49,142 bases of DNA, taken from positions 1 to 49,142 of IMG/VR virus record IMGVR_UViG_3300031746_000033; one strand, given 5' to 3'. Numbering within the stretch: position 1 is the stretch's first letter; every line of letters begins with the position of its first letter. Below are positions 12,402-43,838 of this stretch, piece by piece. The notes under the pieces were generated by a model. The model did not search any database. It was given only the letters and a program-made list of their open reading frames with translations, and was not told the origin of the DNA. Origin of the DNA: a virus. A program made the translations under genes and the position numbers.

Positions 12402-13586
12402 TTAACATGAACCACTAAAACTAAAAATTCCACTACTTACTGTGCCATAATTAGTCCAATCTGAATAATATCCGTCAGGGGCTAATGTAGTACAAGATAT
12501 ATCTGTGTAGATTCCTAACGCAAAATCCAAGATACAACCATTTGTTTTACAAGGAACACTTATATAGTATGTTGATTGAGTAGCCATACAAGCCATAAAA
12601 CTGTCAGTTAAATCGTAACCCAATTGGACTTGACAACAACTAGTTAATACTAATGTATCACAAATTACTTGAGGTGAAACTGGGGTAACATTTGTGGAAG
12701 CAGAAAAAGGATTATAACATACAGTATATCCAGTAGTGCTAGGTCCACTTGTTCCACTTATTTGTCCGTAAGGGTAACAACATGAGTAATATGAGTATAC
12801 GGTGTCCTTTGGTATAGTCCCTTCAACACAATTAACGGGTGTTTCAATTGGTGTTGGTGTTGGAGTTTGAGTATTTGTTGGTGTTTGAGTATTTGTTGGT
12901 GTTTGAGTATTAGTTGGTGTTACGGTAGGTGTTGGTGTTAAAGTTAATGTTGGAGTTTGAGTATTTGTTGGAGTTTGAGTGTTAGTTGGTGTTTGAGTAT
13001 TAGTTGGAGTTTGAGTATTAGTTGGTGTTACACTTGGTGTTACGGTAGGTGTTGGTGTTAAAGTTAATGTTGGAGTTTGAGTATTTGTTGGTGTTTGAGT
13101 ATTTGTTGGAGTTTGAGTATTTGTTGGAGTTTGAGTATTTGTTGGTGTTTGAGTATTAGTTGGAGTTTGAGTATTAGTTGGTGTTACACTTGGTGTTACG
13201 GTAGGTGTTGGTGTTAAAGTTAATGTTGGAGTTAGAGTTGTTGTTACACTTGGAGTTACAGTATTTGTTGGAGTTACAGTATTTGTTGGAGTTACAGTAT
13301 TTGTTGGAGTTACAGTATTTGTTGGAGTTTGAGTATTTGTTGGAGTTACAGTATTTGTTGGAGTTTGAGTATTTGTTGGAGTTACAGTATTTGTTGGAGT
13401 TACAGTATTTGTTGGTGTTGGTGTTACAGATGGACTTGGAGACTCTCTATGTTGATCTGGTAATGACCCTCTTTTATTCGAAAAGTCTATATCAAAAATC
13501 TTGGCGGTCAATATATCTTGACCAGGTACAATTAAACTTGATCCACCCATTATTTTTCCCGATCTTCTCCTTACACTTAATCCCAT
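12402..13586 (-). CDS. Mucin-like Thr/Pro hexapeptide-repeat protein, probable virion decoration
   Basis: 394 aa. Residues 1-50 form a basic head (GLSVRRRSGKIMGGSS). Residues ~50-245 are tandem hexapeptides TPTNTQ or TPTNTV in a higher-order pattern with LTLTPTPTVT spacers. The C-terminal ~150 residues are a Cys-rich beta domain (SYYSCCYPYG; LTSCCQVQLG; CKTNGC). No signal peptide or membrane segment. It sits between TerL and portal in the head block and has its own TATTTATT box, so a capsid-displayed fibre or stalk with a binding tip is likely. The Thr-rich stalk is a natural O-glycosylation substrate, and four glycosyltransferases are encoded at 33-36 kb. Confidence 0.7.
   Translation of the reverse strand: MGLSVRRRSGKIMGGSSLIVPGQDILTAKIFDIDFSNKRGSLPDQHRESPSPSVTPTPTNTVTPTNTVTPTNTQTPTNTVTPTNTQTPTNTVTPTNTVTPTNTVTPTNTVTPSVTTTLTPTLTLTPTPTVTPSVTPTNTQTPTNTQTPTNTQTPTNTQTPTNTQTPTNTQTPTLTLTPTPTVTPSVTPTNTQTPTNTQTPTNTQTPTNTQTPTLTLTPTPTVTPTNTQTPTNTQTPTNTQTPTPTPIETPVNCVEGTIPKDTVYSYYSCCYPYGQISGTSGPSTTGYTVCYNPFSASTNVTPVSPQVICDTLVLTSCCQVQLGYDLTDSFMACMATQSTYYISVPCKTNGCILDFALGIYTDISCTTLAPDGYYSDWTNYGTVSSGIFSFSGSC
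12846..13434 (-). repeat. Coding 18-bp tandem repeat with higher-order units
   Basis: About 30 copies of an 18-bp unit encode TPTNTQ/TPTNTV. Larger blocks containing an LTLTPTPTVTPSV spacer are themselves repeated three times. The units stay in frame throughout, so copy number can change by recombination or slippage without breaking the gene. Confidence 0.9.
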
Positions 13587-20684: not shown

Positions 20685-22745
20685 ATGATTGAATTTCAAG
20701 ACGAAAACGAAAAAGGAAAAAAGAAACCAGACAGTAGTGGAGGAACTCCCGTTTTAGACAACTTTAGTAGAGATTTAATAAAAATGGCAGAGGAAGGGAA
20801 ATTAGACCCTGTAATTGGTCGAGAAAAAGAAATTTTAAGAATTGCTCAAGTTTTATCTCGAAGAAAAAAAAATAACCCAATAATAATTGGTGAGCCAGGA
20901 GCCGGAAAAACGGCAATTGTTGAGGGTTTAGCAATGATGATTTTTAATGGTGAATGTCCTAAAAACTTGTCAGATAAAAGAATTGTATCTTTAGATATGA
21001 ATTCGGTTGTTGCTGGAACAAAATATCGTGGTCAATTTGAGGAACGAATGAAAATTATAATTGAAGAATTACAGTCTAATCCAAACATTGTTGTTTTTAT
21101 TGACGAAATTCACACAATGGTGGGAGCGGGAAACAGTTCTGGATCTTTAGATGCTTCCAATATTTTTAAACCCGCATTATCTAGAGGGGAAATTCAATGT
21201 GTTGGAGCAACAACATTAGACGAATACCGAAAACATTTTGAAAAAGATGGGGCATTAGAAAGACGATTCCAAAAAGTAATTGTAGATCCATCAACTAAAG
21301 AAGAAACTTTTGAAATTCTTAAACAAAGTAAATCTAAATATGAAGAACATCATAAGGTAAACTATAGTGACGAATCTCTTTGGATTTGTGTTGAACTAGC
21401 TGATAGATACATTACGGATAGAGAATTTCCCGACAAAGCATTTGACATTTTAGATGAGGTTGGAGCAAGAATGCAGATCGATATTAAATTACCTGAAGTT
21501 ATTGAAAAACTTAAATTGGCCGCCCAATCAATTAAAAAAGAAAAACTTGATGTAATTAAACGACAAAATTATGAACAAGCCGCAGAATTAAGAGATAAAG
21601 AACGTACTATTGTTTCTAATCTTGAAAAAGAAAAAAGAAAATTTGAGGATTATCTTAAAACAAGTAAAAGAATAGTTTCAGAAGAATTGATTTATGAGGT
21701 TGTTTCTAATATGACAAAAATACCCGTATCAAAACTAAACTTGGATGAAAAAAATACTTTGGTTAATTTAGAGTCTTCTCTAAACTTTACAGTAATCGGT
21801 CAAGAAGAAGCTGTTATGAAAATATCAAAATCTATTCGACGAAATCGTGTCGGAATTAAAGATCCTAATCGACCAATAGGGTCATTTATTTTTTTAGGAT
21901 CAACAGGTGTTGGTAAAACATTTTTAGCAAAACAATTAGCAAAACAAATATTTGGAAATGAAGATAATTTAATACGTGTTGATATGTCGGAATATCAAGA
22001 GAGACATACGATATCAAGATTAATTGGATCTCCTCCAGGATATGTGGGACATGAAGAAGGTGGACAACTTACTGAACAAGTAAAAAATAAACCGTATTCT
22101 GTAATTTTATTTGATGAGATTGAAAAGGCAAATAAAGATATTTTTTCAACATTATTACAAATGTTAGATGACGGACATTTAACTGATGGATTAGGTAGAA
22201 AGATCAATTTCAAGAATTGTTTAATTATTATGACATCTAACATTGGAGTTAAAAAATTACATGATTTTGGAACTGGTGTTGGATTTAAAACTAATAGTGA
22301 TGTTGTTAAAGAAGAACATAAAAGAGATGTTCTTAAAAAAGAGTTGGGGAAGTTTTTTGCTCCTGAATTTCTTAATCGTATTGACGATGTTATTATCTTT
22401 AACTCATTAAAAAAAGAAGATATAGATAAAATTGTTAAATTGGAACTTGATATTTTATTAAAAAGATTACTTAAAATGAAATATAAATTTAGTTACAAAT
22501 TGGAAGTTATTGATTTAATTTCAAAAGTGGGGTTTGACGAATTGTTTGGAGCTCGTCCATTAAAAAGAGCAATTCAAGATAAAATCGAAGATTTAATATC
22601 CGAAAAAATACTTTTAAATGAAGTTGTTGAAAATAAAGACTATATGTTATTAGTAAAAGACGATGAAAATATTTTAATTGAGGACCATTCTATTCCTGAA
22701 CCAAAAAAAAGAGGTAGAAAAAAGAAAGAGGATCAACCACAGTAG
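20685..22745 (+). CDS. clpC: ClpC-type AAA+ unfoldase with UVR motif and ClpP-docking loop
   Basis: 686 aa, two AAA+ modules, lacking the usual N-terminal adaptor domain (ClpC is ~810 aa). D1: Walker A IGEPGAGKT (~68-76), Walker B VVFIDEIHT, pore-loop region KYRGQFEER. Middle: a UVR motif NYEQAAELRDKER (~293-305), the mark of ClpC. D2: Walker A GSTGVGKT (~405-412), Walker B VILFDEIEKA, arginine-finger region PEFLNRID. A VGF tripeptide (~530, in TGVGFKTN) sits where ClpC carries its ClpP-binding loop, so docking to host ClpP is plausible. Lys-rich tail. On the plus strand alone, facing a peptidase gene. Confidence 0.92.
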   Translation: MIEFQDENEKGKKKPDSSGGTPVLDNFSRDLIKMAEEGKLDPVIGREKEILRIAQVLSRRKKNNPIIIGEPGAGKTAIVEGLAMMIFNGECPKNLSDKRIVSLDMNSVVAGTKYRGQFEERMKIIIEELQSNPNIVVFIDEIHTMVGAGNSSGSLDASNIFKPALSRGEIQCVGATTLDEYRKHFEKDGALERRFQKVIVDPSTKEETFEILKQSKSKYEEHHKVNYSDESLWICVELADRYITDREFPDKAFDILDEVGARMQIDIKLPEVIEKLKLAAQSIKKEKLDVIKRQNYEQAAELRDKERTIVSNLEKEKRKFEDYLKTSKRIVSEELIYEVVSNMTKIPVSKLNLDEKNTLVNLESSLNFTVIGQEEAVMKISKSIRRNRVGIKDPNRPIGSFIFLGSTGVGKTFLAKQLAKQIFGNEDNLIRVDMSEYQERHTISRLIGSPPGYVGHEEGGQLTEQVKNKPYSVILFDEIEKANKDIFSTLLQMLDDGHLTDGLGRKINFKNCLIIMTSNIGVKKLHDFGTGVGFKTNSDVVKEEHKRDVLKKELGKFFAPEFLNRIDDVIIFNSLKKEDIDKIVKLELDILLKRLLKMKYKFSYKLEVIDLISKVGFDELFGARPLKRAIQDKIEDLISEKILLNEVVENKDYMLLVKDDENILIEDHSIPEPKKRGRKKKEDQPQ

Positions 22746-22760
22746 TAAAATTAAAAATAT

Positions 22761-23546
22761 TTAATGTTTAGTGTAACCAAGTTCCTCAATCATTAACTTA
22801 CCAACTTTGATCCCATTGTAAGTATCGTCAACAACAACATATTCATTTGGTGTGTGATAACGATAATATCCAATTGATATATTAAAACAAGGAATATTAA
22901 ATAATGTATTAACCATATATATGTCCGTATAAGGGTGTTTATGGTACTTTGTGTCAGATGGGAAATGTTCGGTAATTAAACCCCCACCAACTCTAAAGAA
23001 TTCACTATCACGATCAAACATATTTTTACTCATAAGATATTCAGAAATCATATTGTTCTCAGGTGCATCAAATTGAATCCCATATCCAACATTTTTAAAG
23101 AACTCCGGATCTGCGTTTTTTGATCCGTGACAACCAGTTTCTTCAGACACAAAAAATGCTGATTTTAAATTTGGTAATTCCTTTAATAATTCCAAACAAC
23201 CAAACACACCACATTTATCGTCACCACCAATACCAGTTGGGTGTCCTTTATCGTTATATGCTTTAAGTGATAATTTGATCTCTCCCTGAGCGTTAGGTAA
23301 CATTTCCTCAACAACGTTAATTGTGTCAATAGTATGTACCGTATCGGTGTGAGCAATCACACACGGGAAGTATTCAATATCTTCGTCGGTTTGTTTCGTT
23401 GCGTAGATGTTATACATCTCATCAACATAAAACGGAATATTGTTCTCGGTTAACCAATTGGTAATAAATTGGATCATCAAATCCTCTTTATATGTCTTTG
23501 TTGGTACGGACAATACTTGTTTTAATAAGTCATAATTTCTTTCCAT
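22761..23546 (-). CDS. M20/peptidase T-like zinc aminopeptidase
   Basis: 261 aa from the ATG at 23546; a longer frame starting at a TTG would run through the promoter. Metal and catalytic motifs are all visible: CVIAHTDTVH, GIGGDDKCGVFG, FFVSEETGCHGS, IQFDAPENN and the late RYHTPNEYVVVDD. These are the five ligand positions of the M20/M28/M42 metallopeptidases, closest in style to peptidase T or PepD-like enzymes. It would trim short peptides in the cytoplasm. A host-type promoter ends 4 nt before the ATG, so the mRNA is probably leaderless. Convergent with the ClpC-like gene. Confidence 0.88.
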   Translation of the reverse strand: MERNYDLLKQVLSVPTKTYKEDLMIQFITNWLTENNIPFYVDEMYNIYATKQTDEDIEYFPCVIAHTDTVHTIDTINVVEEMLPNAQGEIKLSLKAYNDKGHPTGIGGDDKCGVFGCLELLKELPNLKSAFFVSEETGCHGSKNADPEFFKNVGYGIQFDAPENNMISEYLMSKNMFDRDSEFFRVGGGLITEHFPSDTKYHKHPYTDIYMVNTLFNIPCFNISIGYYRYHTPNEYVVVDDTYNGIKVGKLMIEELGYTKH

Positions 23547-23550
23547 GGTA

Positions 23551-23581
23551 CAAAAGTACAAAAATTATTTCAATATACCAA
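23551..23581 (-). promoter_or_regulatory. Host-type promoter for the peptidase gene, leaderless
   Basis: Minus strand TTG-N20-TACTTTTG, then TACC, then ATG. The -7 element fits TAnnTTTG, and the transcription start should fall at or next to the start codon. Confidence 0.6.
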
Positions 23582-24959
23582 CAATTCTTTTAATTTCTTC
23601 AAATAATTCGTATTGGGTTTCAATTCTTTTTAATTCTTCAAAATCTACAGATCTTTTTTGTTCCGTATCATCACTTATATTATTTTTAATACTAACAATA
23701 ATCTTATTTGTTTTTGGGTCAATTTTATCCACCTTAAACATTTTATTTTTATCTGTTTTTATTGGTAACCATTTATCAAATCCATATTCTTTATCCACTT
23801 TTTGTTGAATACCAATAAATTCATTATAGTTTGTAAATCTTTCATCGTCATCAAAACCTTCATATATTTTTTCTAATTCATTTGCAACAAAACTTTGAAA
23901 TTTATCATAGTCAACATCACAATTGGTATTATATCTTAGTTCATCCCAACCACCTCTACTATAATTATTTTTATCTAATTTTTCAATTAACGTAGTTAAT
24001 AAAGTTTTAAGATCTTCATTTTCGGATTTAGTTTGTTTGTACCAAGTTAATAACACTCCAACCGTAGTTTGGAATTTATATCCAAAGTTTATTTCTTTTA
24101 TTCCAAATTTCATAAACGGATTTACAAATTCAGATCTTATTGTGTCTTTAATTGTATTATAAACACAATCTTCAAATTCTGTACTATATTCACCAACAAT
24201 TGTAGTAACAAAATCAATGTTTATGTCAGACATTGCTTCTGATATTTTTTTGGTATCGTCATTCGTTATTGATGGGTAAAATGTTTTAACAATATTATAA
24301 ATACTGTTAGAATTTTCATCACTAAGAGCATAATTCATAAAGTCGCCATTTTCCCAATCTTCAATATATTGTTCGTCTTGATAATAGTTATCATAACCCC
24401 CATAATTTGACATATGAATGTTCCATTCATATTTATCCTCATCACCAATATCAAAAACGTCTAAGAAATCTTCATCCTTCTCAAATAAAATTGTAACAAT
24501 TGAACTATTTGGAAATTTTTCATTAAATTTAATTTCATCAATTAAATTATCTCCACCATTTTCATTCCAGTTAGGATCATATCCCCTATAAACTTTTTTC
24601 AAGAATTCAAATGTTCTACCAAATATAACTAATGGTGTTAGAAGTTTAAGTGATTCTGGAAATAATTTTCTTAATTCATCCACATCACCAAAACGAATAA
24701 TATCATCATGAACCCTAATAACACTTGTTTGATTATTTTCCCGATTATGTAAAGATACAATTGGAGTGTCTTCATTAGAACTAATTATGAAATATGTGTC
24801 CCCATCATTAAAATTATTATCCCAATTATTACTATAAAAATCCCCACCAAAATAAAATGCGGAATCTTTAGATAATACCTTCACTATCTTTAAATCATCA
24901 TTTTCAATAATTATTTCTAAATCTCCAGATTCGTATGGGTTATATTTTTTGTTTTCCAT
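23565..24959 (-). CDS. Large acidic hypothetical protein
   Basis: 464 aa, rich in Asp, Glu, Asn, Tyr and Phe. N-terminal ~110 residues form a beta-rich segment (DLEIIIENDDLKIVKVLSKD; TYFIISSNEDTPIVSLHNRE), the rest is helical (FVTTIVGEYSTEFEDCVYN; GWDELRYNTNCDVDYDKF). No signal peptide or membrane segment. A TATTTATT box ends 5 nt before the ATG. It is divergent from the tmRNA gene. I do not recognise a family; it is probably a non-structural cytoplasmic protein by location. Confidence 0.6.
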   Translation of the reverse strand: MENKKYNPYESGDLEIIIENDDLKIVKVLSKDSAFYFGGDFYSNNWDNNFNDGDTYFIISSNEDTPIVSLHNRENNQTSVIRVHDDIIRFGDVDELRKLFPESLKLLTPLVIFGRTFEFLKKVYRGYDPNWNENGGDNLIDEIKFNEKFPNSSIVTILFEKDEDFLDVFDIGDEDKYEWNIHMSNYGGYDNYYQDEQYIEDWENGDFMNYALSDENSNSIYNIVKTFYPSITNDDTKKISEAMSDINIDFVTTIVGEYSTEFEDCVYNTIKDTIRSEFVNPFMKFGIKEINFGYKFQTTVGVLLTWYKQTKSENEDLKTLLTTLIEKLDKNNYSRGGWDELRYNTNCDVDYDKFQSFVANELEKIYEGFDDDERFTNYNEFIGIQQKVDKEYGFDKWLPIKTDKNKMFKVDKIDPKTNKIIVSIKNNISDDTEQKRSVDFEELKRIETQYELFEEIKRIVGILK

Positions 24960-24981: not shown

Positions 24982-25012
24982 TTTGGAATTTTTATTTTTT
25001 GTCTTATCTTTG
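24982..25012 (+). promoter_or_regulatory. Consensus Bacteroidota promoter of the tmRNA
   Basis: TTTG (24982-24985), exactly 19 nt, TATCTTTG (25005-25012). This is a full match to -33 TTTG / -7 TAnnTTTG, about 30 nt before the mature tmRNA 5' end. Confidence 0.85.
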
Positions 25013-25043: not shown

Positions 25044-25458
25044 GGGGGTGTTTTTGGATTTGACAGGTATTGGCTGAAGACAAAGGGCACGTGGAGACTG
25101 AATTAATCTCCTTAAAAACTGATTCACAAAAACAATCGGCGACGTTTTATCGAAAATGGAAACTCTTGGTTTACTAAGAGGATCCGAAGTTACTGTAGCC
25201 TAAGAGGTTTACGGAAACGGGGGGTCGGTGGACACATAACCTAGCAACAGAAGTCTTTATGGTGTGGTTTCTACCCTAAAAGGAACAAACGGTCTCGTTC
25301 AGAGTACTACCGTAATAAAAGTGAACTCTACACAGTTATTGGTGACGATGTCAAAATAGGAACCAAATATTTCGGAAGGTATGACAAACCTTGACCTAAA
25401 CGTGTAGTCCTTCTCTGACAGGATATTATGGACCGGAGTTCGAGCCTCCGCACCTCCA
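25044..25458 (+). ncRNA. ssrA: Transfer-messenger RNA (tmRNA)
   Basis: The 5' end GGGGGUG pairs with CACCUCC at 25451-25457 (7-bp acceptor stem), followed by discriminator A; CCA is not encoded. The hallmark GGAUUUGACAGG-type segment follows the 5' end and the T-arm CGGAG-UUCGAGC-CUCCG closes the 3' end. The tag frame most likely resumes at GGC (25138), after CAAUC, as in Bacteroidota tmRNAs. It then reads 21 codons, GDVLSKMETLGLLRGSEVTV plus Ala, to UAA at 25201-25203. This is much longer than the ~9-residue Bacteroidota tags and ends TVA, not ALAA. It rescues stalled ribosomes with host SmpB. Confidence 0.95.
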
Positions 25459-25468
25459 CATCATATTA

Positions 25469-25495
25469 CCCCATCTCCACAGATGGGGTTTTTTT
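25469..25495 (+). terminator. tmRNA terminator
   Basis: Perfect 8-bp stem CCCCATCT/AGATGGGG, loop CCAC, then seven T, 11 nt after the mature tmRNA 3' end. Confidence 0.9.
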
Positions 25496-25544
25496 ATGCG
25501 TTAAAATTATAGATTAGTGTTGTGTGAATATTATATTTTAGAGC

Positions 25545-25583: not shown

Positions 25584-25619
25584 TTTTTGAACCTAAAATA
25601 TAATATAAAAAAATAAAAA

Positions 25620-26507
25620 CCTGAGATTACAGTTTTCGTAAGTGTCTTTCGAGTCATTATTGGTTCTACTCTTATCCACAGGATTTTGTCCTGTAACACT
25701 CATTACCGATTGGTTAGACCAATCACTCCTTGACGATATAACTACTCTCTTACTACTCCTGTCTCCTCAAGATTGCGTCCTGATTCGGTCTTCGACGACC
25801 TAGAGATTTTTCATAAAAATACGGTCAAACTTGCGGTTATCACGTTCCACTGACAGCCAGTGAATAGGTGGGTAACTTCCGTTATATCGTGACGAACACT
25901 TTTGCTTTATAGTTTATAAATGTTACTTCATTAACATTAAAGTTTTTGTGTCGTGGATTGTTCAAAGTTGTGGTCCGTCTTAAGCTTCATTATCTTTTGA
26001 ATAACAAAATACCAAACAACTCTGTAAAATGTCCCCATTTCAATATTTCAAGACTACTTCGAAACTAACCCCTTGGTAGAAGTCGGTTAAGGTTAATAAC
26101 GGCACCATCCGTACGTTAACATACCTTTCGGTTTTAAGTATCCTTTTATATTGGAACCCGCAATAACAACATTGGAAATATTGATTCTTGCATCATCCCT
26201 ACGAGTTATTCCTATTGGAGTTCCCTCCTCAACAAGATGACCCACATCACCTCGTCATAAAATCACTTTCCCTACACCGTTGGCCTCGGTACTAAAGATC
26301 TTATGGTATCTCGCCTGTGTACTCGACCTCAATATTCCGAAGACTATTAAGACGCAAACCCGTTACACTTGGGGGTTCACTTTATCCTACTTTCGTAGTT
26401 TATTTTATGGACTATACACGGCCCAATATCTTTATCAGTTTCATTTCTTACTTCTGAATGGATAATCTAAATTTTCAAAGAACTTTTCAGGACTTTTCCT
26501 GATTTGT
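25620..26507 (-). ncRNA. Candidate giant structured non-coding RNA (~890 nt)
   Basis: No convincing ORF on either strand across ~1 kb, in a genome that is otherwise gene-packed, and the segment is less AT-rich than the intergenic DNA. A strong host-type promoter (26512-26542) and a terminator flank it. Local hairpins include 25678-25694 (ACAGGA/TCCTGT), 25708-25724 (GATTGGT/ACCAATC), 25787-25800, 25848-25862, 25921-25936, 26217-26228 (GGAG-GGAA-CTCC) and 26387-26398 (CTAC-GAAA-GTAG), the last two with GNRA loops, plus a 5' hairpin at 26488-26501. The 5' CCUGA..AGUU can pair with the 3' AACU..UCAGG, closing the molecule. Size and location beside RNA genes in a phage recall GOLLD and ROOL RNAs; I cannot assign it to either by sequence. 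Confidence 0.75.
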
Positions 26508-26796: not shown

Positions 26797-28767
26797 TTAA
26801 ATAATTTTTTTCATTAAGTCTTTTATTCTATAAATTTCCTCATTTAATTGAGTATTTTCGGAAAGACCTCTTTCTTTTCTAATTTTTGCTCCAAGTACAG
26901 GAAGACTTAAAATATTTTTTAAAAATGATTTTATATCTATATCGTTAGTGTTTTTCGTTCCAACCTCAACCCTAAATTGTTTTGCCACTTCTGTTATTGA
27001 ATCTTTTGATATCGTAGATCCGTCAGATAATTCTATAGATGAGTAATATTTTATACATTCATCCAAGGTTTTAAAATTATTTATAGTTTCTTTATTATTG
27101 GTTAATAGTTCTAGATCTTTTTTTAGTAACAATAAAACATCGTTGTTATTTTTGGTGCCACCACCAGTATAATATAGGTGCCAAGGTTCCGCAATCCTCA
27201 ATGATCCTTTGGATTTATAAGTTACCTCAAACCCGTAATTTTCACAATTATCAGCAACCCATTTTTTAACCTTTGAGTTTTTATCCCACCAACTAGTATC
27301 AGTACTAAATATATCAAAAGTTTTACCTGTGTGATGTTGGCTAAATCCAGGTAAACAATTTGAAGCTTGTGTGTCTTCAATACCTCTTTTTTTAGCTTTG
27401 GATCCAAAATTATCTACTTGGTCATTATAATTTCTATATCCCGACACAATGTCATCTGGATATTGTATGGGGTTTGCTAATTTACAGTCCTTTATTAATT
27501 CCTCAATTTTTTTCTTTGCTTGAGAATCCTCATGACCATTATCTGGTCTAATATTTCCTTCTTGTTTAAATTCAGCATCAATATGTTTTTGAGTAATGGT
27601 GACCCCCCATTTACTTTTTAATTTATCCATTAACTTTTGAATCTGTGGTGGTAATGTATTGCCTTCAGATTTTGTTGGGTTTTCATCCTCGTCATTTTTC
27701 ATATATTTTGATTTACATTTTAATGTTCCATCATCAGTAATAAATTGTCTAATATTACCTGTTTCAACTCCAATATGTAGGTGATCATATGAACTACCAG
27801 GAAAATCCATCACATATCCTAACAATTGTCCGCAAGAAATTTTAGATCCTTTTGAAATTGTTGTATCTTTTAAATGAGTATAAAAAACACTTGGTAATTT
27901 ATTATCAGTTTTAACTGTAAATCCAGTCCCAAATATTTTTTTACCATTTTTCCTTATAATATTTGGACCATGATTTGTAAAAGTAACGACAGTACCTGAA
28001 TTAACTGCGTATACAGGAGTTCCAATTGGGACTGCAATATCCCAAGCATTGTTACTCTGCCAACCTGATTGTCCCTTGTGGGCACCATCTCTTGGAATTT
28101 TAATTTTATTCTTACCTAATATAAAACTTTCGGTTATAGTTCCATATTTTTTTATTAATATTGAACATATTACTATAATGGTGTATGGGTTAGTAATTCC
28201 TATTTTTTTTAATTGAGATACAACGGTATCGGCAATGTCTTTTGATTTACCTGTCAAATTGTTATATGTGACAACCAAATTACTTATTGTACTTTTATCG
28301 GGTACTTCATTATCATCTTGAGTTTTATTTAAATCTCCTTTTACAATTTCTTTACCACTAATATATGATTCTGGATTAACCCAATTACCATTTTTACTTT
28401 TTCTGATTTCAAAATGTAAATGTGGTCCAGTTGACTTACCGCCACCTCCCGCTAAACCTTGTCCACCACCAGATAATGCAATTTGATCACCTTGTTTAAC
28501 TTTATCGCCAACACTTACCAACATTTTAGTTAAATGGGCATATGCAGAATAAAAAGTTTCTCCATCTAAGTCATGTTTAATGATTATAAAATTACCGTAA
28601 CCATAATAGTTTTTCATGTCAGCCCTAACCACCTCACCATCCGCAACAGAATTCACACCTGTCCCATCAGGAACACCAATGTCAATACCATTATGATGTG
28701 CTCCATTTCTAGGCCCAAATCCAGATGTTTTACTACCTTTTTTTGATAATGGATAAATTAAGTTCAT
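26797..28767 (-). CDS. Triple cell-wall peptidase: M23-M23-M15 fusion
   Basis: 656 aa from MNLIYPLSKK (28767); the TATTTATG box ends 5 nt upstream, inside the longer frame. Domain 1 (~8-140): complete M23 metallopeptidase (HHNGIDIGVP, then GPHLHFEI). Domain 2 (~225-375): second M23 fold with Asn for the first His (NNAWDIAVP) but intact DHLHIGVE, so probably inactive or binding. Domain 3 (~400-570): M15 VanY-like carboxypeptidase (SGYRNYNDQ, SQHHTGKTFDI, EPWHLYY). The C-terminus EEIYRIKDLMKKII resembles the tag helices at N-termini elsewhere. It cuts peptidoglycan cross-links; the tag suggests it is carried in the virion. Confidence 0.88.
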   Translation of the reverse strand: MNLIYPLSKKGSKTSGFGPRNGAHHNGIDIGVPDGTGVNSVADGEVVRADMKNYYGYGNFIIIKHDLDGETFYSAYAHLTKMLVSVGDKVKQGDQIALSGGGQGLAGGGGKSTGPHLHFEIRKSKNGNWVNPESYISGKEIVKGDLNKTQDDNEVPDKSTISNLVVTYNNLTGKSKDIADTVVSQLKKIGITNPYTIIVICSILIKKYGTITESFILGKNKIKIPRDGAHKGQSGWQSNNAWDIAVPIGTPVYAVNSGTVVTFTNHGPNIIRKNGKKIFGTGFTVKTDNKLPSVFYTHLKDTTISKGSKISCGQLLGYVMDFPGSSYDHLHIGVETGNIRQFITDDGTLKCKSKYMKNDEDENPTKSEGNTLPPQIQKLMDKLKSKWGVTITQKHIDAEFKQEGNIRPDNGHEDSQAKKKIEELIKDCKLANPIQYPDDIVSGYRNYNDQVDNFGSKAKKRGIEDTQASNCLPGFSQHHTGKTFDIFSTDTSWWDKNSKVKKWVADNCENYGFEVTYKSKGSLRIAEPWHLYYTGGGTKNNNDVLLLLKKDLELLTNNKETINNFKTLDECIKYYSSIELSDGSTISKDSITEVAKQFRVEVGTKNTNDIDIKSFLKNILSLPVLGAKIRKERGLSENTQLNEEIYRIKDLMKKII

Positions 28768-28769
28768 AT

Positions 28770-29249
28770 TTACATAAATATACATTTATTTGAAAACCAT
28801 TCAGGTATATTTCTATTTTTCCATTTTGCAAAATCTTTTTTTGCTCCAATATAATAATTTCGATAAGATTCTATAACATTATTAACTTTATATTCGTCTG
28901 GCATAGCTTTGGGTGGTTCTGTGAACTCTGTGTCGGAAATATTTGGTTTGTTTGTTAAACACCACTCTATTACATCCTGAGACTTATGTCTCTTTCCATA
29001 ACGATATGTATATTCTTTACATAACTCCAATCCAAGATCACAAAGGTATAGATAGTTAGATAAGTTCTCACGAACCCATATTGAACATGGATGATTTTTA
29101 TGAGATAATTTATAAGGGGCTTCTGATCCTATAACCCAATGGGTACTACACAATAGTTGTGCCGTCTCAAGGATCATTTTAACTACGTGTTTATCACAAT
29201 GATATTCCGCACATTTTTTTGTGTCAAAATCTAAAAAAAATATATTCAT
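28770..29249 (-). CDS. Conserved phage protein of unknown function, leaderless gene
   Basis: 159 aa. Strong pattern: MNIFFLDFDTKKCAEYHCDK, HVVKMILETAQLL, NHPCSIWVRENLSNYLYL, ELCKEYTYRYGKRHKS, PPKAMPDEYK and AKWKNRNIPEWF. I recall this family in many T4-like and cyanobacterial phages without an established function; the conserved His, Cys, Asp and Glu suggest metal binding or catalysis. A perfect host-type promoter ends 4 nt before the ATG. Its stop lies 3 nt upstream of the peptidase start. Confidence 0.75.
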   Translation of the reverse strand: MNIFFLDFDTKKCAEYHCDKHVVKMILETAQLLCSTHWVIGSEAPYKLSHKNHPCSIWVRENLSNYLYLCDLGLELCKEYTYRYGKRHKSQDVIEWCLTNKPNISDTEFTEPPKAMPDEYKVNNVIESYRNYYIGAKKDFAKWKNRNIPEWFSNKCIFM

Positions 29250-32334: not shown

Positions 32335-32799
32335 TTAAAGATCTAAAATAAACAAATCTTTATTACCGTCGGAATAATGTTGTTTGAATCCAATATTTTT
32401 AACCATATTTTGAGATGGTATATTATTTTTTTTAACAGTTAGTGAAATCCTATCATAACCTGAATGTTTAGCGATATTTTCACATTCTTTAAATAATTTT
32501 AAACCATATCCTAATCGTCTAAATTGTTCTTCAACAACAATAGTATGTGCATAAGCGGTATTTGATAAATTTCCATAATTAGTATGTAAAAGTTTGTCAT
32601 CATTATTAAAATCTTCATTATTTAACATTTTATTTAAATCTGTTATTGTTACAGAACCAATAACATTATTATTTTCTGTTAAATAATAAACACAATATCC
32701 TCGATCACTTTCAATATTACTTGCCACCCAAATTTTATATGGATCCGAATTTTCAGATAACAATGATTTTATTCTATATATTTCCTCAATAAGTTCCAT
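32335..32799 (-). CDS. GNAT acetyltransferase with N-terminal capsid-type tag
   Basis: 154 aa. Residues 1-16, MELIEEIYRIKSLLSE|N, form the amphipathic tag helix ending L-S-E. The rest is a GNAT fold: YCVYYLTENNNVIGSVTITD, then motif A HTIVVEEQFRRLGYGLKLF with the acetyl-CoA pyrophosphate loop R-R-L-G-Y-G, then SQNMVKNIGF (motif B). Enzymes of this fold acetylate proteins, antibiotics or small molecules. The tag suggests a virion-delivered enzyme, comparable in logic to T4 Alt. A TATTTATT box ends 4 nt before the ATG. Confidence 0.8.
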   Translation of the reverse strand: MELIEEIYRIKSLLSENSDPYKIWVASNIESDRGYCVYYLTENNNVIGSVTITDLNKMLNNEDFNNDDKLLHTNYGNLSNTAYAHTIVVEEQFRRLGYGLKLFKECENIAKHSGYDRISLTVKKNNIPSQNMVKNIGFKQHYSDGNKDLFILDL

Positions 32800-38482: not shown

Positions 38483-40324
38483 TTATTGCCAACCTGATGA
38501 AGAGAATGTCATTGCATTTCCTGTTATACCACCAGAAGGGTAGTAATATCCTGCAGTTCCATCCCATTCATAATCAGATCCATATTTCCCTGGGTGGTTA
38601 GCATTAACCCATCTAATAAAATCGTCTTGTGTGTTAGTGTATGTATTAGATGGTGTTGTTGTTGGAGGTGTTGGTGATGGTGTTGGTGGTGTGCTACCTC
38701 CACCGATTTCAAATGGAACTTCTTTTCCTCCTATTTTTACAACAAATTTATCTTTAGTTGTTACCTTATTTCCTGTGTAATCCAATTTAGTACCACCCTT
38801 AACAAAAACAATGCTACTGGCAAAATTAGTGGGATCATCTTGTTTTAAGTTATCACAAGTTAATCCTATAGTGTTAACATCATTTCTAACTTCCATTGGA
38901 AGATCGTAGTAACCATAAATATACTTCAAACAATTGGGTAATGTAGTTCTTGGATCATCAATTGGAATGGCCTTTGAAATTCCTTCCAGAAGAAAAAGTT
39001 TAAGATTCTCTGTGAAATCATTTACAAACTCATAATTTCGTAGACATAAATATAACAAATACATTGAAAAAATAGCCTTTAAAACTTTGTAAAGGAAACC
39101 AAGTACGGGCCACGCTATAAAAAATTCTTCCATTGTTTTCATGAATTTTGTATAAGCACTAAGCCTTTTTGTTGCCTTTTCTGTGGATTTACCTACTTTA
39201 GCATTTCTACCTTCTGCTTTAATTTTTAATTCATCCGTTAAATTTTTATACGTCGTACTAGTTTGAAAATTCATTAAATCGTTTATAGACATATTTGAAA
39301 ATTGTCGTTCAGCTTTTGCAAGAAAATCGGCCGCCGACCCAAGTTTGAAATAAGACAGTACTCTCGTAATAAAAGAAAATGCTTCCTTATAATTTACATC
39401 ACTTTTTAAAGTAGGTATTACATCACCCAAACGTTCATCTTTTATGTTTTGTAATCTTTGTGAATCGGCAGCTTCATTTGCACTCCTTTGACTGGCTTCA
39501 TCATCTATTCTTTTTTGTTCTGCAGCCGCATCATCAAGATCCTGCTGTTGTTTTATGGTTTTTTGGTTTCCCATTTCCTCCTTTGGAATAAACACAGCAT
39601 CGGGTGTAGGTTCTTTTATTTTTGTGGATGATCCATCTAATGCCTCGGCAGCGTATCTATAATCATCTAATAAATCTGCAAACTCTTTATTTGTTGCGTC
39701 ATTCATGTCTAAACCTGAGTTTTTAAACATGTTGCTTATATTAAGTAGGTCTCCTTTTAAAGTACCGGCATTTGCTGATGTAATATCAGTATTTCTAACA
39801 AAATCGTCAATGCCCTGACCTAACTGTGCATCTACTGTTCTAAGAATATCCGCAAAAGATTTTCCTGCCAATGAGTTTTTTACAAAGTCAGAATTACTTT
39901 TGAGAATTTCTTCTGCAAGATCTGTATTATTTTTAAAAAACTTAGCCATCGCATCATCGACCATTTCTTTTGTTACTGTGGAAACATCTATACCTCTAAT
40001 TGCTGCAATTTTTCCCTGAAGTTTTGTAATATCGTCAAGTCCATTTTTTTCTAATAATTCTATAAATCCTTTTGCTCCTGCATCCCAATTATCGGCAATT
40101 GATCTACCAAAAATAACTGCGGTAGCATCATCCATTCCCAAAACTTTAAATAATCTAGCCATGGCGGCAGGGTCTGGTTGAACTGTAGCTTCAGTTAACA
40201 AATATTTGGACATATCGTTAGTTTGTTCTTGTATGTATTTTTTTGAAGAGTAAGATAAAGTACCAACGCCCATAATTTCTCTCATTCTAAAAATTTCTGA
40301 AATTATGTTTAATTCTTTTTTCAT
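38483..40324 (-). CDS. Tagged internal virion protein with membrane segment
   Basis: 613 aa. N-terminal helix MKKELNIISEIFRMREIMGV, then YLLTE|ATV at residues 41-46, a textbook gp21-type site. A long Ala-rich helical body (~50-390, coiled-coil parts such as QQQDLDDAAAEQKRIDDEAS) precedes a hydrophobic segment ~400-430 (AWPVLGFLYKVLKAIFSMYL). A Pro/Thr linker leads to a small end domain (DDFIRWVNANHPGKY...) shared with the 752-aa protein. This architecture suits a protein ejected with DNA that inserts into the host membrane. Located 23 nt upstream of the 752-aa gene. Confidence 0.7.
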   Translation of the reverse strand: MKKELNIISEIFRMREIMGVGTLSYSSKKYIQEQTNDMSKYLLTEATVQPDPAAMARLFKVLGMDDATAVIFGRSIADNWDAGAKGFIELLEKNGLDDITKLQGKIAAIRGIDVSTVTKEMVDDAMAKFFKNNTDLAEEILKSNSDFVKNSLAGKSFADILRTVDAQLGQGIDDFVRNTDITSANAGTLKGDLLNISNMFKNSGLDMNDATNKEFADLLDDYRYAAEALDGSSTKIKEPTPDAVFIPKEEMGNQKTIKQQQDLDDAAAEQKRIDDEASQRSANEAADSQRLQNIKDERLGDVIPTLKSDVNYKEAFSFITRVLSYFKLGSAADFLAKAERQFSNMSINDLMNFQTSTTYKNLTDELKIKAEGRNAKVGKSTEKATKRLSAYTKFMKTMEEFFIAWPVLGFLYKVLKAIFSMYLLYLCLRNYEFVNDFTENLKLFLLEGISKAIPIDDPRTTLPNCLKYIYGYYDLPMEVRNDVNTIGLTCDNLKQDDPTNFASSIVFVKGGTKLDYTGNKVTTKDKFVVKIGGKEVPFEIGGGSTPPTPSPTPPTTTPSNTYTNTQDDFIRWVNANHPGKYGSDYEWDGTAGYYYPSGGITGNAMTFSSSGWQ

Positions 40325-40441: not shown

Positions 40442-42748
40442 TTACAATTGTCCATCTGAATAGTATTTTCCCTCTTTATAAACCAAAATTCGTTGTAAAA
40501 TACCATCTTCATCATATTCATAAACTTTACCATCCCAAATCTCACCATTTTTAAAAGTCCCATCTTTCCAAATTTCACCGTTTTTATTGTAAACTTTAGT
40601 ATTTTGGGATGGAGAATTAGATTGAATTGTTTCCTTCCCCCAAATTTTTTCATTTGTAAAATCTGTTTCAGGAACCATACTTCCATCAATAAAAAATTGA
40701 AGGGTTCCCGAAACATCTTTAAACTCAAATTTATGTTCATTTCCTTTATTGTCTTTACATGTTCCCGTTGCGGTTTTTAAATCCGTCGAAACTTCGATCT
40801 TTGTAATTGTTATACCAATTAGTTTTGGTTTTTCTTCACAAACTTTAATAAACGAATTTTTTAAATTAAATTTTTGAAGTGCATTAACAAACTTTTGACC
40901 ATTTGGTGTTTTTAGTAAGGATTTAATTTCTTCGGCCTTCGCCTCAATAACTTCTTTTTGTGCTTGATCATAAATTCCTTTCATTTCTTCTGTTTTCCAA
41001 AATTCTGGATCATTAGCAAATTTCTTTATGAGTATGGGATCGTCTACTATCTTATCCATAGTTAGTTGAATCGCGGATTCAGTTAGATAGGGATCTATAC
41101 TCGATAAATCATTAATATACCCTGTATTATTTTCTGTAAAAGCGGTTACGTTATTTGTAAAAGATATTTGTTCATCTGGTTCTAACAGAGTACGAAATAA
41201 TGATTTAAAAGTAATAGCTATAACCATTAATGGTGCTCCCATTCTAAAAATTTGTCCAGGTATAACGTAACGGCTTGTAAACGGATTCACTGTTTTGGCC
41301 CATATTTTCTGAAACTCAACAGTTTTTACTCCAGCCTTTTCACCAAATAAAGCTGCTGTCTTTCCGATGAACTTCTCTGTGGACTGTTTTACTTGTGCCT
41401 CAGACCATTCTTTTGCGAATTCCCCACCTGACTTAACCAATTCTTCAAATCCAAGAAGAAATGCGTCACAACCTTCTTGAGTTGCAAACATTTTCATTCC
41501 TTCATTAAACATTGCAAACTCAGTCCCACTTAAATTATTTATAAATTTAAAATAATCTTCAGAAGCACCAGGAATTCCGGCTTTTACATTATCAAATATT
41601 TGTTTTAACCCCGCTACCCTTATTTTGTCTGATAAATTTTTTGCCGTTTCTTTACCGTATCTACCTGATATCAATCCTGAAACAGCTTTTGTTTCACTAA
41701 TAAATGGAATCAAACAAAACAATATGTCTAACGTCGCATCACTTGTTCTACCATCACTAATTTGCCATTTAATAAGTGGAGCCATCATTACACCTTCACA
41801 TACGGCCTGTAATATAACAGATGCCACAGTGGTACTTCCTCCCATATAATTGGCTGACATAAAAGCAAAAAAAGCTCCTGTTGAACCCGCAGTGGCCTCT
41901 AAAAGAATTGCGGCTAAACCGGCACCTGTTAGTGCCGCTGCAACTCCGATACCTACTTGTAACCATCCTCCGTAATTATCATACCAAGTCTCAAATTCAG
42001 ACCTATCGTCAAAATTACTCAAATCTGCTGGGTTGTAACCTTTTAATGTTTCTGTATCAAAAAATAAAGGAGCTGTAATATCAAATGACCACCCGTTATC
42101 TCCCCCTAAACATTTGATAGATGCTTCAACAGCGGTTTGTTTTTTTGGTGTGGATACGGTAATGTTATCATCTGCTACCGTTTTTTTCAATTTTAATAAC
42201 AATGAAAATTCTTTACTAAATGTTTCAAGTCCAGACGTTCCAAAACCCATACCTCCCTTACTCTCAGTTTTTACCGCAAATTTATATACCTTTCCTTGAA
42301 TTGACGACAATTGCCAAAACTCTTTTGTTGGTAAACATAATTGTTTTGTAATTTTTTTACCATTTTTTTTGTTTGTCACATCTCTAAGAATATATTCTTG
42401 ATTTGTAATTGATTCATTTTTGGCATTAATTACGGTTCCTGTCTCAACTCCATTTATTATGGTAGAAGAAGTGGTATTAGGACCTATAACAAAAACTTTA
42501 CTACCCTCCACAAGTTTAATAATATCTAGCTTATCATCACCAAACTCAAAAATAAAAGGATACTCAGTACCTTTCCCAATGTTAAAAGTTGGTTTTGATG
42601 CCGTAATACCCATCTTAGATCTATCTTCTGCATACCATTTTGCCTGGTTTTGTTCCTGACCAGCCATCGACTCTGAAATAAAGAAATTATTTGATACTCC
42701 CATAATTTCTTTAATTCTTTTTAATTCTAATAATATATTTTTTTCCAT
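40442..42748 (-). CDS. Tagged internal virion protein with membrane segments and YwqK/MORN-like tail
   Basis: 768 aa from MEKNILLELKRIKEIMGVSN, chosen because it gives the same tag helix as the 613-aa protein; the site FFIS-E|S ends at residue 26. The middle (~280-350) has Gly/Ala-rich hydrophobic stretches (VGIGVAAALTGAGLAAILLE; TVASVILQAVCEGVMM), and another near 490. The final ~50 residues (YNKNGEIWKDGTFKNGEIWD) are repeats like MORN or YwqK units. I infer a membrane-active ejection protein. The next upstream gene overlaps its longer frame. Confidence 0.65.
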   Translation of the reverse strand: MEKNILLELKRIKEIMGVSNNFFISESMAGQEQNQAKWYAEDRSKMGITASKPTFNIGKGTEYPFIFEFGDDKLDIIKLVEGSKVFVIGPNTTSSTIINGVETGTVINAKNESITNQEYILRDVTNKKNGKKITKQLCLPTKEFWQLSSIQGKVYKFAVKTESKGGMGFGTSGLETFSKEFSLLLKLKKTVADDNITVSTPKKQTAVEASIKCLGGDNGWSFDITAPLFFDTETLKGYNPADLSNFDDRSEFETWYDNYGGWLQVGIGVAAALTGAGLAAILLEATAGSTGAFFAFMSANYMGGSTTVASVILQAVCEGVMMAPLIKWQISDGRTSDATLDILFCLIPFISETKAVSGLISGRYGKETAKNLSDKIRVAGLKQIFDNVKAGIPGASEDYFKFINNLSGTEFAMFNEGMKMFATQEGCDAFLLGFEELVKSGGEFAKEWSEAQVKQSTEKFIGKTAALFGEKAGVKTVEFQKIWAKTVNPFTSRYVIPGQIFRMGAPLMVIAITFKSLFRTLLEPDEQISFTNNVTAFTENNTGYINDLSSIDPYLTESAIQLTMDKIVDDPILIKKFANDPEFWKTEEMKGIYDQAQKEVIEAKAEEIKSLLKTPNGQKFVNALQKFNLKNSFIKVCEEKPKLIGITITKIEVSTDLKTATGTCKDNKGNEHKFEFKDVSGTLQFFIDGSMVPETDFTNEKIWGKETIQSNSPSQNTKVYNKNGEIWKDGTFKNGEIWDGKVYEYDEDGILQRILVYKEGKYYSDGQL

Positions 42749-42755
42749 ATTTCTT

Positions 42756-43838
42756 TTAATTATCCCCATTTCCATTTAACGGTAAAATAAAAACTTCATC
42801 GTCAAATATGTTGATTTCATCGCCTATACCATTAATCTCACCGTTATTGTCTAACCCATCCTTTACACCGGTAAAAACAATTTTTTTCTTTATTGACTCC
42901 AACCCCGAACCTTCGGCTTGTTTCCAAGTAGGGTATTTTATTGCCATTTCAGTGCTGTCTTTTCCTTTAAAATAATATCTATCCCCTTCTTTTTTATAGT
43001 CAAACAATTTGTCAGAAGAATATGTTGTGGTTTTATCTTCATTTCCTATTGTTTTAGTATTAATAGTGGGATTCTTGTATGCAAAAACATTAACTTGTGG
43101 TAATTGTTGAATTTGATCTATATCTAACTTTTCATTATTACCATCATAATATCCTACACTGTAACTTTTATAAAAGGAATAATCAAAACATGTCCCGCCA
43201 TAACAATAAATTGAAGTAGAATATATTTTATCATTACTTTTAATTTTTCCGGGCATGTTTCCAGGTAATTCTTTATAAAGATATGTTATAGAATTTTTAA
43301 TACACGTTCTTATTACTTTTGTGTAATCATCATGTGATTCATCATTGTAAAATACTTGCCCATTTTTGTTTCGAGTCCATCCTGGAATGGTTGACTTATA
43401 CTCAACACCTACAGAATAATCGTTATTATTATTCAAACTATCCCTATCATTTTCCCATCTTTGTTTTTCTGGTGTGGGTTGTCTACGTGTGATATTTATT
43501 TTTTCAGAATTTTTTAACGACTCACTTATCCAATCATACCCCCAACCCACAGTACCCGTGTTTTCAAAATGAGAATCACCTATTGATCTGAAACAACCAA
43601 TCCTAATATCTTTAGCAATTTTATTTCCTGTTACATTGTAATCAGTTTCAAAATCCTTTAATTGTGCTTTTGCGGTTTTTAAAACCGTTCCATTAAAAGA
43701 TATTGGATTATTATTAACATCTACCCACGACTTGTTTGAATCTTCAAATATAATTTCTCTATTTTCTTTTAAAGTTTTACTTGCATCATACCTCATATTA
43801 AGAAGTATTTTTTTTAATATGTCTTCCGCATTATTCAT
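42756..43838 (-). CDS. Tagged hypothetical virion protein
   Basis: 360 aa. N-terminus MNNAEDILKKILLNMRYDAS then KTLKENREIIFE|DS (I-F-E at 30-32): a basic helix and h-x-E site. From memory 'M-x-YD-x-SKTL-x-EN' starts recur in Bacteroidota phage virion proteins. The body is Asn/Tyr/Lys-rich and beta-like, ending in an acidic segment (DEINIFDDEVFILPL). Its ATG overlaps the stop of the 81-aa gene (ATGA), so translation is coupled. No enzyme motif. Confidence 0.6.
   Translation of the reverse strand: MNNAEDILKKILLNMRYDASKTLKENREIIFEDSNKSWVDVNNNPISFNGTVLKTAKAQLKDFETDYNVTGNKIAKDIRIGCFRSIGDSHFENTGTVGWGYDWISESLKNSEKINITRRQPTPEKQRWENDRDSLNNNNDYSVGVEYKSTIPGWTRNKNGQVFYNDESHDDYTKVIRTCIKNSITYLYKELPGNMPGKIKSNDKIYSTSIYCYGGTCFDYSFYKSYSVGYYDGNNEKLDIDQIQQLPQVNVFAYKNPTINTKTIGNEDKTTTYSSDKLFDYKKEGDRYYFKGKDSTEMAIKYPTWKQAEGSGLESIKKKIVFTGVKDGLDNNGEINGIGDEINIFDDEVFILPLNGNGDN

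Follow-up and report, generated by a model that had tools for sequence, protein, structure and literature searches.

Phage-encoded tmRNAs were listed in 2014 for phage G and mycobacteriophages (PMC4131195), and a later survey reported tmRNA in 402 of 18,146 phages (PMC9004378). The tags encoded by tmRNAs are known at lengths of 8-35 residues (PMC8012679), and ClpX recognises the terminal di-alanine (PMC9601184). No paper on the phage group described here was found in the literature reached, which excluded most subscription journals.

Bacillus phage G, a jumbo phage, has a tmRNA (67.6 bits) and shares with the present locus a VA-ended tag (AKLNITNNELQVA, ending QVA) and a Clp unfoldase of its own. 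It differs in that its tag has 13 codons, in that Pfam-confirmed ClpX and ClpP take the place of a ClpC-like protein, and in that these Clp genes are distant from the tmRNA. Directly before the phage G tmRNA, ARAGORN finds a tRNA with the stop-reading anticodon tta (L358, 1373-1446). The mycobacteriophages EniyanLRS (Wildcat type; tag AVDTDVDFAMWEAELASDLVAA, 22 residues) and Astraea (Bixzunavirus; tag ATDTDATVTDAEIEAFFAEEAAALV, 25 residues as read by ARAGORN) also have long tags unlike the short bacterial type. Their tags, in contrast to the one studied here, resume on GCx, end in LVAA/AALV and belong to phages of other hosts, and no sequence relation was seen. EniyanLRS has a ClpP-like protease; in Astraea, neither the annotation nor tblastn with four phage Clp sequences as queries revealed a Clp gene. 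Since long tags are already known in mycobacteriophages, the present tag is another variant and not a new kind.

Lak megaphages (Lak-A2, L373, and Lak-B1, L374) have tmRNA matches, a short host-like tag ending FRMAA, which we read as DDEIDFRMAA in Lak-A2, and a ClpX-like gene. A full-length tmRNA with a 36-codon reading was found in LR756508, and elsewhere in the same phage a stretch of 112 nt (414804-414915, L378; 58 bits) resembles the tRNA-like domain of tmRNA alone, much like a TLD-only gene that was reported for phage DS6A. A correlation between the presence of Clp genes and the tag ending was set aside, as the records are fragmentary and related, and Astraea and Lak fit poorly; the phage lineages compared are too few and non-random, so no such correlation is claimed. 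One record titled Acinetobacter phage MD-2021a (CAKLQH020000005.1, L365) contains tig-clpP-clpX and resembles a contig of a bacterial chromosome.

The stretch analysed here, referred to as the window, is a viral record of 49,142 bases carrying T4-type genes for the major capsid protein, the portal protein and the terminase. The capsid protein had no close isolate match, the best being about 47% identity over half of the protein. Between the terminase and portal genes, a protein encoded at 12402-13586 (minus strand) is dominated by PTNTQTPTNTVTPTNT-type repeats. A short terminal motif resembling EIxRIKxLM recurs at the start or end of unrelated proteins encoded at 32335-32799, 38483-40324, 40442-42775 and 26797-28785, all on the minus strand, and may serve in targeting, for example to the capsid. 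The features of the tmRNA gene are the following.

24982-25012, plus strand: predicted promoter TTTG-N19-TATCTTTG, a layout shared by 94 of the 105 distinct regions compared upstream of tmRNA genes.
25044-25461, plus strand: one-piece phage tmRNA gene, CCA end unencoded (Rfam RF00023, 95.9 bits; covariation in P1, P2, PK1 and T-arm among 33 relatives).
25044-25050, plus strand: 5' strand of acceptor stem P1, with a G3-U pair found in 33/33 relatives.
25093-25126, plus strand: pseudoknot PK1; each of its two stems pairs in 99.5-100% of cells and shows compensatory changes.
25138-25203, plus strand: tag reading frame, 21 codons GDVLSKMETLGLLRGSEVTVA and UAA (Rfam resume position; 21-22 codons in 96/96 relatives; coding signal).
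25158-25185, plus strand: P5-type hairpin inside the tag frame, codons 7-16, which forms separately in every aligned relative.
25434-25457, plus strand: T-arm and 3' strand of P1, with both-side changes in 4/5 T-stem pairs.
25468-25496, plus strand: predicted intrinsic terminator 3' of the tmRNA.

The RNA at 25044-25461 is a real tmRNA, as the original prediction had stated from its clear ends and T-arm; it is one-piece and has a conserved structure. Its match by Rfam cmscan lies well over the gathering score of 47 (E=3e-36) and covers model positions 1-374, which is the full length of RF00023. ARAGORN run on the whole window missed this tmRNA; it detects part of the related tmRNAs, several of which it reads with the same tag, e.g. 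GNTIAKLSTLGLIRTEEVTVA followed by a stop. Across 33 aligned tmRNAs, 97-100% of cells in P1, P2, PK1 and the T-arm are paired, and compensatory changes are present. A G3-U pair is the mark of alanine acceptors, and its role in alanylation is established. The 3' modules of the tmRNA (pseudoknot region and T-stem variants; alignment A1, columns 190-444) look recombination-shuffled relative to the tag types.

The arrangement T(T)TG-N18-22-TAnnTTTG, found in these 94 of 105 regions and in 0.9% of shuffles, is the Bacteroidota consensus. Since Bacteroidota tmRNAs, in the closest cases, also resume on GGC, the promoter and the resume codon together suggest that the host is probably a member of the Bacteroidota. 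On the other side of the tmRNA, a GOLLD RNA (Rfam, 291 bits; 25618-26024, minus strand) lies 157 nt past it in convergent orientation, and GOLLD is also present in 12/18 large relatives, often near the tmRNA.

The GGC at 25138-25140, 11 nt from the 3' end of PK1, aligns to the resume-codon position of the Rfam family, and the frame from there ends at UAA, 25201-25203. Both the covariance model and the closest Bacteroidota cases, which also use GGC, bear out the original choice of resume codon. Bacteroidota tmRNAs (e.g. Pedobacter, GENTYALAA) resemble that of the phage in being one-piece, in resuming on GGC at a near-equal distance from the 5' end and in leaving CCA unencoded. The sampled Bacteroidota tags (GENTYALAA, GEYNYALAA, ANDYSYAMAA and alike) have 9-10 residues, and all end in AA save one ARAGORN reading that looks miscalled, whereas the phage tag has 21-22 residues, nearly always ends in VA and crosses the P5-type hairpin. 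The tag is therefore unlike the host type, as had been claimed. The accompanying description of host tags as about nine residues ending ALAA is broadly true of the Bacteroidota sampled, and 'unusually long' has to be qualified: the tag is longer than the sampled host tags, but published tags span 8-35 residues (PMC8012679).

Relatives were collected by scanning viral contigs. The tmRNA 5' end gave 101 stretches, a downstream motif gave further ones, and a scan with the unfoldase described below kept 80 of 418 relatives. Among 96 distinct 230-nt tmRNA 5' parts, the tag read from the equivalent codon has 21 codons in 94 and 22 in the remaining 2, so that the 21 codons read to UAA in the window recur in related phages. 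The mean pairwise BLOSUM62 score of frame 0 is 3.14, against 1.56 +/- 0.28 (maximum 2.34) in 300 column permutations, for 60 distinct 21-codon ORFs; this set was preselected for ORF length and for A or S as the last residue, and the length count in 96 sequences is the fairer measure. In the same 60 ORFs the +1 frame has stops in 60/60 and the +2 frame in 56/60. Variable codon positions in the tag number 7 at the second, 16 at the first and 18 at the third position, and one relative (L146) has an in-frame insertion of 3 nt. The comparison shows the predicted tag frame to be conserved and coding, with 21-22 codons and the consensus G-[ND]-V-[LI]-x-[KN]-[ML]-x-x-[LIV]-G-[LF]-[LIV]-x-x-x-[EDQ]-V-[TSA]-V-[AS]. 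Tags of remoter relatives include GDVFANATVGHFVTEGATVAA and, as read here, GNVYNEMAMFGLVADEAIVNA. The tag of the window ends TVA and so lacks the terminal AA of the ssrA degron read by ClpX (LAA/VAA type); those of relatives mostly end VA, and a few VS or VAA.

Outside the 60-ORF set there are exceptions, namely the 36-codon reading of LR756508, a 13-codon reading in L089, which is probably rearranged, and a 32-codon tag ending LLLAA in L085/L193 (IMGVR_UViG_3300042863_002243). The latter is a related viral tmRNA, and no ClpC-like gene was found across its 149-kb record.

A layout resembling the canonical one would result if translation resumed one base later, at the GCG at 25139, as the resulting 12-codon tag ATFYRKWKLLVY is short and stops in the P5 loop. 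We give this +1 frame almost no credence and have rejected it: in relatives it yields unrelated short readings (AMC, ATF, ATQLQNFLHSV) besides the stops already noted, and both Rfam and the Bacteroidota tmRNAs put the resume codon at GGC. The case that would have undone the original prediction, another resume codon with a standard short tag, was thus examined in the form of this reading, which relatives contradict.

Seven of the 12 pairs of the P5-type hairpin are changed on both sides among the 33 aligned tmRNAs, and 70% of cells are paired, the value being this low because the inner part changes register between clades. In the usual, though not universal, layout the stop codon lies inside P5; here the tag UAA lies 15 nt past the hairpin. 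As the tag frame spans the hairpin with the stop beyond, the ribosome must translate across it. The P5 pairing also couples some amino-acid changes, so structure may account for part of the mid-tag conservation.

Searches outside the group returned little. Neither distant blastn with the tmRNA nor tblastn with a 21-residue tag matched anything in the phage collection, and an isolate was thus not identified. A tblastn with so short a peptide carries little weight, as the Astraea tag peptide was likewise unmatched although ARAGORN reads it in Astraea. As regards a bacterial origin of the tag region, 395 Bacteroidota genomes gave just four weak matches of 22-43 bases, and an 18-base pattern of the tmRNA 5' end run against genome contigs gave mostly chance matches and two Pedobacter tmRNAs. 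No tag-like peptide was found elsewhere in six phage genomes, and the tag as a mimic of another phage protein was rejected on this ground.

Three genes lie upstream of the tmRNA.

20685-22745, plus strand: ClpC-like AAA+ unfoldase without N-domain, with VGF at the ClpP-docking loop position (phmmer to ClpC 6em8, 715 bits; motifs).
22761-23561, minus strand: M20-family peptidase (Pfam PF01546; PHROG peptidase).
23565-24959, minus strand: 464-aa protein between peptidase and tmRNA, found in 46 of the 51 clpC loci that span 15 kb or more.

The first protein has two AAA+ modules and a ClpC-type middle region. It shares with Staphylococcus aureus ClpC (6em8) both AAA+ modules, the pore motifs, the UVR-type middle region and a VGF, at residue ~531, that aligns with the ClpP-docking loop and may serve in docking. 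In contrast to ClpC, the phage protein is missing the N-terminal adaptor-binding domain, the alignment beginning at ClpC residue 153, and the protein is therefore named ClpC-like only. In 63/63 testable tmRNA-anchored loci the gene was found, 1.9-3.3 kb upstream of the tmRNA; no locus with an upstream flank of at least 7.5 kb lacked it, and 33 were too short to judge. Starting from clpC, a strict pattern finds the tmRNA in 48 loci and misses it in 13, with 19 too short; in most of the 13 the tmRNA is visible with looser motifs. All 51 of the clpC loci that span 15 kb or more also have the M20 peptidase gene. Family searches with the 464-aa protein gave no match, and it may stand outside the system. 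All loci in these tmRNA-clpC-M20 counts come from one related phage group, and common descent could by itself account for the linkage.

We propose, at about even confidence, a working tmRNA that depends on host SmpB, its tag serving as a Clp degron with changed specificity, and with the phage ClpC-like unfoldase and host ClpP as its likeliest dedicated reader. Transcription would start from the Bacteroidota-type promoter, as its conserved consensus suggests, and the invariant G3-U pair points to charging with alanine by a host enzyme. Host SmpB would deliver the tmRNA to stalled ribosomes: a search of 18 large relatives, fragments among them, turned up neither SmpB nor ClpP. Translation would then resume at GGC, in the frame given by the comparison, and add alanine and the 21 encoded residues through the P5-type hairpin. 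The tag would most likely remain a Clp degron, its specificity altered by the VA end in place of AA and by the long conserved middle; the ClpC-like unfoldase with host ClpP would most likely be the dedicated reader, and the adjoining M20 peptidase may finish the peptides. The earlier suggestion that the tag redirects rescued proteins to a different protease is plausible, because of the difference between AA and VA ends, the linked clpC (63/63), and the ClpX/ClpP and QVA tag of phage G. The independent pairings of tmRNA and Clp genes in phage G (ClpX, ClpP) and EniyanLRS (ClpP-like) count in favour of the proposed reader, and the long-tag tmRNA of Astraea with no Clp found and the Lak phages, with a ClpX match and a host-like MAA tag, count against it. 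A stronger form, in which the tag is poorly read by host ClpXP and specifically by the ClpC-like protein with host ClpP, as a private disposal channel whose peptides the M20 peptidase recycles, is possible but doubtful.

Alternatively, the tmRNA may rescue ribosomes just as that of the host does, with host ClpXP degrading the tag, its length and VA end being tolerated or tuning the rate, and the ClpC-like protein serving disaggregation, host takeover or another role. We hold this account only tentatively. Host ClpXP degrades the synthetic ssrA tag that ends in LVA, so that a VA end need not imply a new reader, and VA-ended tags are generally known to be able to serve as ClpX substrates; the cofactors all appear to be supplied by the host, Lak-A2 retains its host-like tag despite its ClpX match, and the clpC-tmRNA linkage may be synteny alone. 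However, conservation of 21 residues, far past the tag end, and the consistent replacement of AA by VA would be unneeded for host ClpXP, and the terminal di-alanine is what ClpX recognises (PMC9601184).

That all 21 residues are conserved, including GNVL at the start, also fits a tag that is mainly not a degron and sends rescued chains elsewhere or has another activity, e.g. binding of a phage or host partner via its amphipathic-looking middle. This we consider unlikely, as a small hydrophobic C-terminus is typical of degrons, the mid-tag conservation may stem in part from the P5-type hairpin, and a similar peptide is absent elsewhere in the six phage genomes. Less likely again is a tag that stabilises or protects rescued proteins against host ClpXP: its end does differ from the AA recognised by ClpX, yet it is still small and hydrophobic, and retaining truncated proteins would bring no obvious benefit. 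A Clp degron of changed specificity thus remains our preferred reading.

A conserved non-host tag, common to well over a hundred viral loci, adjoins viral unfoldase and peptidase genes, and it differs from the sampled host tags in length and in the residues that ClpX recognises. The passage of the tag frame through the P5-type hairpin widens the range of layouts for working tag frames. The finding raises the question of whether the virus rewrites the signal by which the products of ribosome rescue are degraded, so that it suits the viral machinery.
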